A stretch of DNA of 64,000 nt, from positions 1 to 64,000 of the forward strand of contig CAIYLG010000048.1 in NCBI GenBank assembly GCA_903927025.1. Reading direction: 5' to 3'. The notes beneath the pieces are model-generated. The model saw only the letters and a list, made by a program, of their open reading frames with translations. It was not told where the DNA came from and did not search any database. Source of the DNA: an uncultured Armatimonadota bacterium (GTDB lineage Bacteria; Armatimonadota; Fimbriimonadia; Fimbriimonadales; Fimbriimonadaceae). A program made the position numbers and the translations under genes. Shown in pieces: positions 39,771-43,003 of the stretch; position 1 is the stretch's first letter, and every line of letters begins with the position of its first letter.

Positions 39771-40688
39771 CTAATTTAGAATCCTCCGAATAGCCCGCAT
39801 CTTGGCGCTGCGGCTCCGTGGATTTCTCGCAATTTCATCTGAAGCCGGCTGTCGCGGCTTCTTGTAAAGCTCTTCAAATTCCCCTGTGGCGGAGAGTTCG
39901 CGAAACGCCTGTTTCGCCTGGCGGTCTTCACCGCTGTGGTAAGCGATCGAAATTAATGTCCCACCTGCAACCAGGCAGTTTGCCGCGTCAACTAGCGTCT
40001 CATCGATTCCTTCCAACTCCGCATTGACGGCAATTCGAATCGCCTGAAATGTCCGGGTAGCAGGGTGGATCCTCTTATCTCGCGCTCCAGGCGGGATTGC
40101 TGCCAGCACCGCGTCGACTAAGTCCCCGGTCGTTTTGAGGGGAGTTGTTTTGCGCCGCTCCACAATCTTTCGAGCGATGGCTCGTGCCCAGCGTTCGTCA
40201 GCGTTGTCGTGAAGAATCTGCTCGATTTCGTTTGTGCTGAGGCGATTGAGGAGCGCTCCGGCAGGTTCGCCTCGGCTTCTATCCATCCTCATATCAAGCG
40301 GACCATCCTTTGAGAAGGCAATGCCTCGATTGGGGTCTTCGATCTGCCCGCTGTTCAGGCCAAGGTCCAAAAGAATCGCATTGGGGAGGAGGCCCAGCCC
40401 GCGAACGCAGCGAGCAAGCTGCCTATAATCGCTATGAACGAAGTGCTTGGTAATGGAATCAAAAGGCTCCAGCCTCAGCCGCGCCTTTTCGAGATAGTCC
40501 GCGTCCCAATCGATGCCCAGCAGAGTTCCACCAGGGCGAATCGCCTCCGCAAAGAGCTTGGAGTGACCCGCCAAACCGAGGGTGCCGTCCACCACTGTGT
40601 CGCCAGGCTTTAGTTGGAACGCCTCCAATACCTCGCGCACCATGACAGGCTCGTGGTGTGGTGTTGCGGCCTCTCTTTCCTGCGTCAT
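39771..40688 (-). CDS. rsmH: 16S rRNA m4C1402 methyltransferase RsmH (MraW)
   Basis: 305 residues from ATG 40688, chosen for AAGGAAGGA upstream and the family start HHEPVMVREVLEAF. SAM-binding DGTLGLAGHSKLF, LGIDWDAD, ILLDLGLNSGQIEDPNRGIAF, GTLISIAYHSGEDRQAKQAFREL and KPRQPASDEIARNPRSRSAKMRA are all typical. It methylates the N4 of C1402 in 16S rRNA. Second gene of the dcw operon, 71 bases after mraZ. Confidence 0.95.
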   Translation of the reverse strand: MTQEREAATPHHEPVMVREVLEAFQLKPGDTVVDGTLGLAGHSKLFAEAIRPGGTLLGIDWDADYLEKARLRLEPFDSITKHFVHSDYRQLARCVRGLGLLPNAILLDLGLNSGQIEDPNRGIAFSKDGPLDMRMDRSRGEPAGALLNRLSTNEIEQILHDNADERWARAIARKIVERRKTTPLKTTGDLVDAVLAAIPPGARDKRIHPATRTFQAIRIAVNAELEGIDETLVDAANCLVAGGTLISIAYHSGEDRQAKQAFRELSATGEFEELYKKPRQPASDEIARNPRSRSAKMRAIRRILN

Positions 40689-40759
40689 GGCGTCCTTCCT
40701 TAAACCTTCAAACTTGAAGGAGGCTCGATCTGCCGACCTGGCCCGTAAGACGCTCTGCC

Positions 40760-41263
40760 TCATGAGCTTGCCGGAGTTGTCAGCCCCTTCATCTTGCTGT
40801 ATGCCTGGTTCAGCGGAACTCTCCGCTCCTTTGCATACACTTCCTGATACTTCCAGTACTCCTGGTACTCCTGCGGATCCCACACCTCAATGTGGTCAAA
40901 GCAGCCAACCAGCAATACCTTCTCTTTAAGGTGAGCCTTCTTCCGAATGTGCTCCGGAATGACCACCCTTCCCTGTGTATCGCAGCTCAGATCGTCGTCT
41001 GCCATCGCGAAAAACAACCGAGCGTAATCCTGTCGTCCAGGATTCATTGGGTCCGTGTTGTTGATTTCGATCAGGCGCTCCTGCCATCTATCCTCTGGGT
41101 AGATGCAGATGCACCCAAGTTCGCCAATAGCCATCGCGAACGAGTCGCCAAGACGGTCCCGCTTCTTCTTGCCTAAAAGAATCCGCCCCTTGCTATCAAG
41201 GGTGGCCTCGTCGGTTCCAAGAAGCGGTTTGAGATCAATCCTTGTATCTCCGACCGCCGACAT
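40760..41263 (-). CDS. mraZ: Transcriptional regulator MraZ
   Basis: 167 residues with two AbrB-like repeats: ATLDSKGRILLGKKKRDRLG (about 20-39) and CDTQGRVVIPEHIRKKAHL (about 94-112). MraZ binds repeats upstream of the dcw operon and represses it. It is the first gene of this operon. Clear TGGG-type operator repeats were not found upstream; only TGGATGTGGGG (minus strand, near 41364) is suggestive. Confidence 0.95.
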   Translation of the reverse strand: MSAVGDTRIDLKPLLGTDEATLDSKGRILLGKKKRDRLGDSFAMAIGELGCICIYPEDRWQERLIEINNTDPMNPGRQDYARLFFAMADDDLSCDTQGRVVIPEHIRKKAHLKEKVLLVGCFDHIEVWDPQEYQEYWKYQEVYAKERRVPLNQAYSKMKGLTTPASS

Positions 41264-41302
41264 ATTCGAAAATTCCTTTTTTCGTTGCTGGGGGAATTTG
41301 AA

Positions 41303-41333
41303 GGGCGGGTTAGCATCCGTGCTTCCCCCGCCC
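41303..41333 (-). promoter_or_regulatory. GC-rich hairpin in the mraZ leader region
   Basis: A 7-bp stem GGGCGGG/CCCGCCC encloses a second small stem (AGCA-tccg-TGCT), 40-70 bases before the mraZ start. It is not followed by a T-run in the mraZ direction. It could affect translation or transcription of the dcw leader. Confidence 0.5.
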
Positions 41334-41427
41334 TCAGGAACTTTTTAGTGTTCCGCCCCACATCCACTCTGCCTAGCGACCATCCTTTGCCCCGACAGCG
41401 TTACGGAGATGAGTATATGGGAATAGA

Positions 41428-41453
41428 TGCCATTTTTATAGTTTGAAATGGCA
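41428..41453. promoter_or_regulatory. 8-bp inverted repeat upstream of mraZ
   Basis: TGCCATTT - 10 bases - AAATGGCA in an AT-rich stretch that probably holds the dcw promoter (TATACT on the minus strand nearby). It is a candidate operator; the binding protein is unknown. Confidence 0.4.
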
Positions 41454-41584
41454 TTGATCACCACAAAACCTCCACTATTTTCCAAGTTCACACCAACCGT
41501 CTATCTGAATAGATACATCTGTCTACATATATTCAAGTTGCAGTAGTAGGTGCCTACCCCCGATAACCCTTCAGAGCAATTCAC

Positions 41585-41895
41585 CAGGAGAGGCTAGGAG
41601 TCCAAGTCGGGCTAGACCGAGTGCAGATGCACCGTCAGGTCGCCCCGCAACGGCGAGCGCCTGGGGGTGAGGCAGGATTGATGGACCCAGGCGGTCACGG
41701 GCAAGCTAATTCCGAGTTGTTCTGAAAATTGGCAAACGCCACGAACCGGCTCCCTTCAACTCTTGGGAGGTTTCAACGAGTCGACCGCCGCACACTGCTC
41801 GGCAGGCGGCGACTCAACTTCTCAAAGTAGCCGTCACGCGGCTAGCTGACCGAAAGCGCCATGGTGCCGAAACCGAAATCAAGACGAGTTCCGAC
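41585..41895. ncRNA. Unidentified structured intergenic element, candidate RNA
   Basis: No protein frame fits this GC-rich stretch between the GH76-like gene and mraZ. It holds at least seven stems: TCGG/CCGA (41607-41620), GTGC-agat-GCAC (41621-41632), CGCCTGGG/CCCAGGCG (41658-41693), GGC-aaac-GCC (41731-41740), CTCCC/GGGAG (about 41750-41769), an 11-bp stem with one bulged A (41778-41815) and TAGCCG-tcacg-CGGCTA (41827-41843). Size and density fit a ~300-nt non-coding RNA. The conserved RNase P (GAGGAAAGTCC), tmRNA and common riboswitch signatures were looked for and not found. Strand unknown. Confidence 0.4.
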
Positions 41896-41905
41896 CCGTT
41901 ACTCT

Positions 41906-43003
41906 CTACTTCTGGGACGGCTTCTGGTCCGCATTGGCAACTGTGAAGAACGCCCGGATGGCTGAAGCCTGATCAATGAGGGCGTATGGGGTGTAGGGCT
42001 TTGTTGCCTTCATGTCCCAACGATTTCCGTAGTGCCCCAGACTGTCACGCTGCAGACCATGCACGAATTTCAGCCCTGACTCAATTGCTGGCCACGGGTT
42101 GGTCGTCTTTGGCACCTCGGAATAGGCTCGAATCCAATTCTCTAGGAGAAGATGGATGAACTTGCCGTCGTCTTTGAGTCTGCCATCGGAAGTCACCCAC
42201 CGACGCAGGCTGGCATCCTGCATCTCAATCGCATCCGCAGCGTAGTTTGGCTTTTGAGTGATGCGATAGAGGTCCGCCGCTGACCGCAACATCAGGCCCG
42301 TGTTGTACGACCACTTCGATTTTTGAACCTTCCCGCTGAGTGAGATGTTGTCCCAGTAAAGTCCATCTTCCGGATCCCGTAGGTGCGACCTCGTCCAGGC
42401 ATAGATATCTTCTGCAATTTGTAGGTACCTGGGATTCTGGTCGACGTCGTATAGGGCCAGCGCACATGCCGCGGCAGGTCCGTTGGAACAGGTGTTCTTT
42501 GAAGTCTTCTCCTTCTCTCTCCAGTAGATCCCGTCCCCTAAAACCGAATCACGTCCGCTCAGTACGTAGTCAAACGCCTTGCGGGCCCGGTCTAAGACCT
42601 TATCTGAATGGAGGATTTTGCTCGCCTCAATAAGGCCTAGAACCATCCATTCGTTGTCGTCATAGTAGCGATCCATCGGTTTTGGGACTGGCCGAACATC
42701 AAATCCCGCAACGGGTCCCGTTTTGTTCCAGTAGCGATCCGAGCCCTCGACAATTGATTGAAGTTCCTCAACGTTGCGCTTGTCGGCCACCGAGGCGGCA
42801 TTGGCCGCCTGAATGAGCACCCCCAGCCCCCAATTGAACACAGGGTCCTTGGCAGTCTTTCCCAGTGTTCGCTCTTCGACGAACAGCCCCGATGAGGGCG
42901 TCATCATTTCAGCTTGAATTCGGTCAAAGGCCTCTTGCCCGTAGGCTTTGAAGTGCTCTTTTTGCAACAGTGACCAAAACGCGATAATCCCGGAAGCAAT
43001 CAA
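41906..43003 (-). CDS. Glycoside hydrolase family 76-like protein (alpha-1,6-mannanase type)
   Basis: 365 residues from TTG 43003 (AAGGTGA seven bases upstream). An (alpha/alpha)6-barrel pattern with the GH76 hallmark Asp pair in YYDDNEWMVLGLIEA (D115, D116), then NTCSNGPAAACAL and WSYNTGLMLRSAADLY. GH76 enzymes cut alpha-1,6-mannan backbones. The N-terminus (IASGIIAFWSLL) is a short, weak export signal, so cell location is uncertain. It is monocistronic, with the structured element downstream. Confidence 0.8.
   Translation of the reverse strand: MIASGIIAFWSLLQKEHFKAYGQEAFDRIQAEMMTPSSGLFVEERTLGKTAKDPVFNWGLGVLIQAANAASVADKRNVEELQSIVEGSDRYWNKTGPVAGFDVRPVPKPMDRYYDDNEWMVLGLIEASKILHSDKVLDRARKAFDYVLSGRDSVLGDGIYWREKEKTSKNTCSNGPAAACALALYDVDQNPRYLQIAEDIYAWTRSHLRDPEDGLYWDNISLSGKVQKSKWSYNTGLMLRSAADLYRITQKPNYAADAIEMQDASLRRWVTSDGRLKDDGKFIHLLLENWIRAYSEVPKTTNPWPAIESGLKFVHGLQRDSLGHYGNRWDMKATKPYTPYALIDQASAIRAFFTVANADQKPSQK

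Follow-up and report, generated by a model that had tools for sequence, protein, structure and literature searches.

A conserved RNA leader lies directly before mraZ, the first gene of the dcw operon, in the 64,000-nucleotide stretch of DNA analysed here (the window; uncultured Armatimonadota bacterium, Fimbriimonadaceae, assembly GCA_903927025.1, contig CAIYLG010000048.1, positions 1-64,000 of the forward strand), and we consider it probable that this leader is a CsrA target and that the adjoining interval 41540-41905 is an ordinary lineage-specific spacer with one unusual hairpin. The leader came to light in an alignment of the sequences upstream of mraZ in the genus. It is predicted to be ~142 nt long (41264..41405, minus strand, with a start at ~41405 placed from a -10 box), is conserved in the order, and would form the start of the dcw message ~140 bases beyond the interval, which a preliminary description had singled out as a possible new structured RNA upstream of the dcw operon. 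That proposal was correct as to kind, in that an RNA absent from Rfam does exist here, but mistaken as to place. No Rfam match was obtained for the leader in the window, at gathering or permissive thresholds, or in the loci of seven relatives, and on balance we favor the view that it represents an RNA family that spans the lineage, is missing from Rfam and links cell division to a global post-transcriptional regulator.

The leader is followed by mraZ (40760..41263, minus strand; PF02381, E 7.3e-25) and by the next dcw gene, rsmH (mraW), the true start of which probably lies inside the open frame 39771..40883 (minus strand; PF01795, E 9.6e-82). Upstream, a 642-bp gap containing 41540-41905 separates mraZ from a GH76-like gene, likewise on the minus strand (41906..43003; PF03663, E 4.5e-32). 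A contig scan with an MraZ alignment yielded seven loci, and the relatives retrieved via MraZ bear the names Fimbriimonas, Fimbriimonadaceae, Armatimonadetes or Chthonomonas. In the relatives mraZ is preceded by other genes, so that both the GH76-like neighbor and the spacer seem to be confined to this lineage; the closest MraZ among the sampled genomes is only 69% identical, and a very young RNA in the interval would therefore be missed. The genome also carries a second MraZ-like gene (G000:C2:198377-198703; L052), with 37% identity along part of the length, at which the leader motif was not noted. Given that the interval lies on the same strand as the GH76-like gene and directly 3′ of its stop codon at 41906, with a terminator-like site at 41899-41884 (minus strand), its hairpins could represent the 3′ UTR and transcription end of that gene, possibly including an 11-bp hairpin at 41778-41815. 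We regard this reading as conceivable but somewhat doubtful, as the number of terminator-like sites is at chance level (1 vs. 0.8) and, on the minus strand, no T run follows the 11-bp stem.

The leader itself contains a series of hairpins, all on the minus strand. Ahead of it is a predicted -10 box of the mraZ promoter, TATACT (41412..41417), 97 nt before the loop of the main hairpin, P2. H0, a short hairpin GGC-AAAGGAUG-GUC (41378..41391), presents ANGGA in its loop (at 41387) and has counterparts in relatives, while the P1 stem GGAAC/GUUCC (41337..41354), situated between H0 and P2, is seen in the fold and has counterparts in G004, G019, and G012. P2 (41301..41335), with a 9-bp outer and a 3-bp inner stem, is supported by both folding and covariation. 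Its hexaloop ACGGAU, closed by a C-G pair, is of the ANGGAN type bound by CsrA/RsmE and lies 57 nt before the mraZ start codon; at -21.9 kcal/mol the hairpin is the strongest of the 539 ANGGA sites in the 64-kb window, and P2 is a candidate high-affinity CsrA site. Both the minimum free energy (MFE) and the centroid fold include a possible closing helix, UGGGG (41360-41356)/CCCCA (41293-41289), spanning 41289..41360, that may form a three-way junction with P1 and P2, and counterparts of the UUGGG/CCCAA type can be read by eye in the same three relatives (G004, G019, and G012). Closer to the gene, a weak hairpin CGAAAA-AAGGAA-UUUUCG (41267..41284; -5.2 kcal/mol) places ANGGA in a loop on the Shine-Dalgarno sequence, and AUACAAGGAUUG at mraZ codon 8 (41236..41247), in a hairpin of -15.0 kcal/mol, is near the CsrA SELEX consensus RUACARGGAUGU (PMC7652899). 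Relative to the mraZ start, ANGGA stands at -124, -57, -15, and +20. The leader as a whole is not above shuffles in stability (z -0.93), and it contains no terminator-like site, the sole one in 41200-42000 being that at 41899-41884.

Conservation of P2 was assessed in 54 mraZ loci from this order of the Armatimonadota. There were 31 ANGGA hairpins before mraZ, whereas 200 dinucleotide shuffles gave 7.2 (maximum 16); of 30 permutations of the motif, ANGGA itself ranked first. Hairpins with ANGGA at -18 kcal/mol or below were present in 32 of the 54 genomes, as opposed to 1.3 (maximum 4, 60 trials) after each 5′ flank had been paired with a 3′ flank taken from a different genome; the corresponding figures were 30/46 vs. 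1.5 (maximum 7, 300 trials) without the near-duplicates identified by a k-mer filter, and 8/13 vs. 0.3 (maximum 2) for the 13 leaders of a stricter redundancy filter. Control loops without overlap to the AGGA/GGAA core gave 0-3. Full-leader alignments in MAFFT misplaced P2 in the closest genomes, and we therefore used loop-anchored alignments and flank swaps. In the loop-anchored alignment of 24 sequences, 10 of the 11 P2 stem pairs change on both sides while the loop is kept, with a covariation score of 0.469 vs. 0.203 in shuffled and at most 0.276 in slid alignments, and none of 500 shuffles reached the observed value. A model-aligned set of 39 matches, in which the alignment leans towards the structure, scored 0.580 vs. 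0.211. The flank swap should be taken as the fairer test, because the covariation alignments took the best hairpins whereas the swap selects alike on both sides.

Searches with a model of the hairpin agree with these counts. In the whole genome, model R1 ranks P2 first at 30 bits, with the next place at 20.7; each of the four lower-ranking places overlaps a long open frame. When 113 genomes of the order were searched with the model, 24 places reached E ≤0.02, and 19 of these are located before mraZ/rsmH. Several of the 19 were assigned on the strength of an rsmH-like match in the locus and not of MraZ itself. Just 23 of the 113 genomes reach E 0.02, owing to variation in the stems and the use of stricter filters. 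Matches to the leader model were also obtained in two relatives, immediately ahead of a pseudopilin-like gene (MKRTAFTLIELLVVIAIIAIL...) and ahead of a gene for a secreted protein (L148 1501-1542; L156 1501-1542); these might be further CsrA targets or chance matches.

Other features of the leader recur in relatives at varying strength. A match of at least 5/6 to TATAAT is found in 17 of 30 leaders (shuffled mean 7.6, maximum 13), and in 16 of these 17 the distance between the -10-like box and the P2 loop is 83-100 nt. Near the promoter site of relatives TCCCA-type repeats, which resemble MraZ boxes, are strongly enriched, with 32 boxes vs. 1.6 in shuffles. H0 loops with ANGGA occur near the predicted 5′ end, with closing stems that vary by species (e.g., GCCAAGGAUUGGC, GCCACGGACGGC), and ANGGA is present 40-105 nt before P2 in 24 of 31 leaders (shuffled mean 10.8, maximum 21). 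Pairing of H0 at -3 kcal/mol was seen in 19 cases vs. 9.4 with swapped flanks (maximum 16), roughly two to one, and the H0 signal is weaker than that of P2. Among the leaders tabulated, P2 is mostly found 40-60 nt before the start codon, and a C-G-closed ANGGAN sits at its tip in 24 of 30. The first two ANGGA sites are mostly common to the relatives, several of which also have one at +20 to +24 or at the start codon; ANGGA at the Shine-Dalgarno sequence or start codon, as seen in the window and several relatives, should be interpreted with caution, given that Shine-Dalgarno sequences themselves favor AGGA.

A CsrA protein is encoded in the genome (PF02599, E 9.6e-26) and is present in 60 of the 61 genomes tested. 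Read from its sequence, it carries L4 and R44, the RNA-binding residues named for CsrA (PMC7652899). The csrA gene (L073 1474-1656; G000:C58) is flanked by a small membrane-protein-like ORF and a ribF-like gene and has no flagellar genes next to it. The antagonist FliW was not found in this genome, so that CsrA would have to be controlled in another way. In genus g23 of family f2, most genomes have CsrA without an ANGGA hairpin before mraZ, so that these genomes either lost the arrangement or never acquired it. Nine genomes of this family (G041, G043, G045, and G055-G060) show almost no ANGGA before mraZ and CsrA in all, and form a natural contrast group.

We suggest the following scenario for CsrA-type control of the dcw operon, with putative transcription and binding read from sequence features. 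The dcw transcript would start near 41405, the H0 ANGGA hairpin folding near its 5′ end and the stronger P2 ANGGAN hairpin closer to the start codon. A CsrA dimer would dock on P2 and bridge from there to H0 or to the weaker sites at the Shine-Dalgarno sequence and early codons, and the translation or stability of mraZ, and of the division and cell-wall genes behind it, would change in consequence. Repression of mraZ seems the likelier effect, because sites sit at the Shine-Dalgarno sequence and start codon, with stabilization or activation also possible. The proposed mode of action, which is the one with the best support, is drawn by analogy from E. coli glgC, where a CsrA dimer docks on one hairpin and bridges to a second site (PMC7652899). 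The element recognized by CsrA, RsmA, and RsmE is an ANGGAN hexaloop, C-G closed, on a hairpin (PMC7652899), and the mraZ leader shares it with glgC and with hcnA, the latter a target of RsmE; as in those leaders, there are at least two candidate sites, with a possible further one at the Shine-Dalgarno sequence or start codon. It differs from them in that the gene is mraZ heading the dcw operon, the host belongs to the Armatimonadota, the sites are candidates by sequence, and the P2 stem is long and may be part of a junction. The outer stems of P2 exceed the norm for SELEX ligands (≤4 contiguous pairs; PMC7652899), though they are usually interrupted near the loop.

Titles and opening abstract lines of the papers listed for CsrA with mraZ or dcw contain no report of CsrA acting on mraZ. 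CsrA is best studied in the Gammaproteobacteria. If the leader binds CsrA, the division and cell-wall operon of a poorly studied phylum would be under a global post-transcriptional regulator, acting through loops that are kept while the stems are rewritten; the leader offers a CsrA target that lies outside the model lineages and can be tested directly, as well as a covariance model for finding more.

It is also imaginable, although we judge it unlikely, that what binds the conserved leader is not CsrA but a small molecule, a different protein or a partner sRNA. P1 and a GGGGCGG stretch are conserved in the leaders and are unneeded by CsrA sites, and UpsM of the Rhodobacteraceae shows that control of dcw leaders by sRNA and RNase E is possible (PMC5089854, PMC8307010). 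However, an ANGGA loop with a C-G closing pair, kept across families while the stems are rewritten, is the signature of CsrA/RsmE (PMC7652899), and CsrA is near-universal in the order. UpsM, a 206-nt RNA with an intrinsic terminator that acts with Hfq, RNase E, and StsR (PMC5089854, PMC8307010), is the closest known example of a dcw leader under RNA control. In both cases a structured RNA occupies the mraZ 5′ leader, with possible post-transcriptional control of the dcw genes, but the leader described here has no terminator-like site and a predicted length of ~142 nt. The mraW RNA motif of Actinobacteria, which is in Rfam, is likewise a structured RNA before mraZ/mraW genes, and it is set apart from our CsrA-type leader by the absence of an Rfam match in the window leader and in the loci of the seven relatives.

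The flagged interval (41540..41905, no strand) calls for no special explanation and is most likely a lineage-specific spacer behind the GH76-like gene. It has no family match in Rfam 15 at gathering or permissive thresholds, and no homologue among 60 relatives. It is present in single copy, and its whole-interval MFE is no better than that of shuffles (z -0.89 on the plus strand, -0.47 on the minus strand), so that a structured RNA placed here fails on conservation, copy number, and whole-interval folding. The statement that no gene fits was borne out, as none of the five stop-to-stop frames tested gave a Pfam match; a hidden or decayed gene was rejected on this ground, and a genomic repeat on that of the single copy. 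CsrB/RsmZ sponge RNAs have many hairpins with GGA in their loops. A sponge of this kind was rejected for 41540-41905, where each strand has a single ANGGA (-7.1 and 0.0 kcal/mol) and neither of the two lies in a stable hairpin.

The preliminary description had called the interval hairpin-rich. Both stems that it named do exist, but the stem counts of the interval and its overall fold are at chance level: there are 3 stems of at least 6 bp, where 1.8 would be expected and 121 of 500 shuffles attain this count, and 6 stems of at least 5 bp, where 6.8 would be expected. The first is a perfect 8-bp stem, CGCCTGGG (41658-41665) with CCCAGGCG (41686-41693), enclosing a 20-nt loop (41658..41693, no strand); a perfect stem of at least 8 bp was reached in 55 of 500 shuffles. 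The second (41778..41815, no strand), in which GAGTCG-A-CCGCC (41778-41789) pairs with GGCGGCGACTC (41805-41815) over 11 bp, with one bulged A at 41784 and a 15-nt loop, is the sole locally unusual hairpin of the interval, reached in 4 of 500 shuffles and in 1 of 54 other window stretches. In 100-nt windows of the plus strand around it (41739-41863) z is -4.0 and -3.1, and the value of -4.0 counts against the spacer reading. Very improbable, finally, is a new structured ncRNA of this species or its closest kin transcribed from the plus strand of 41540-41905, for which these local z values, the rarity of the bulged stem in shuffles, and a positive plus-strand AT skew over 41550-41900, unlike the flanking genes, can be cited, but against which stand the chance-level MFE of the whole interval, the lack of homologues and Rfam matches, and a search of 41200-42000 in which no sigma-70-like promoter was found.

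Among known RNAs, no tRNA or tmRNA was detected within the 64-kb window, and the Rfam 6S RNA model had no match in the whole genome (G000), even at E 10. A parallel had also been drawn with bacteria in which rnpB lies beside mraZ; it is excluded here, as RNase P RNA (RF00010) has no match in the window and its gene lies elsewhere in the genome (G000:C56:9796-10114, 256 bits).
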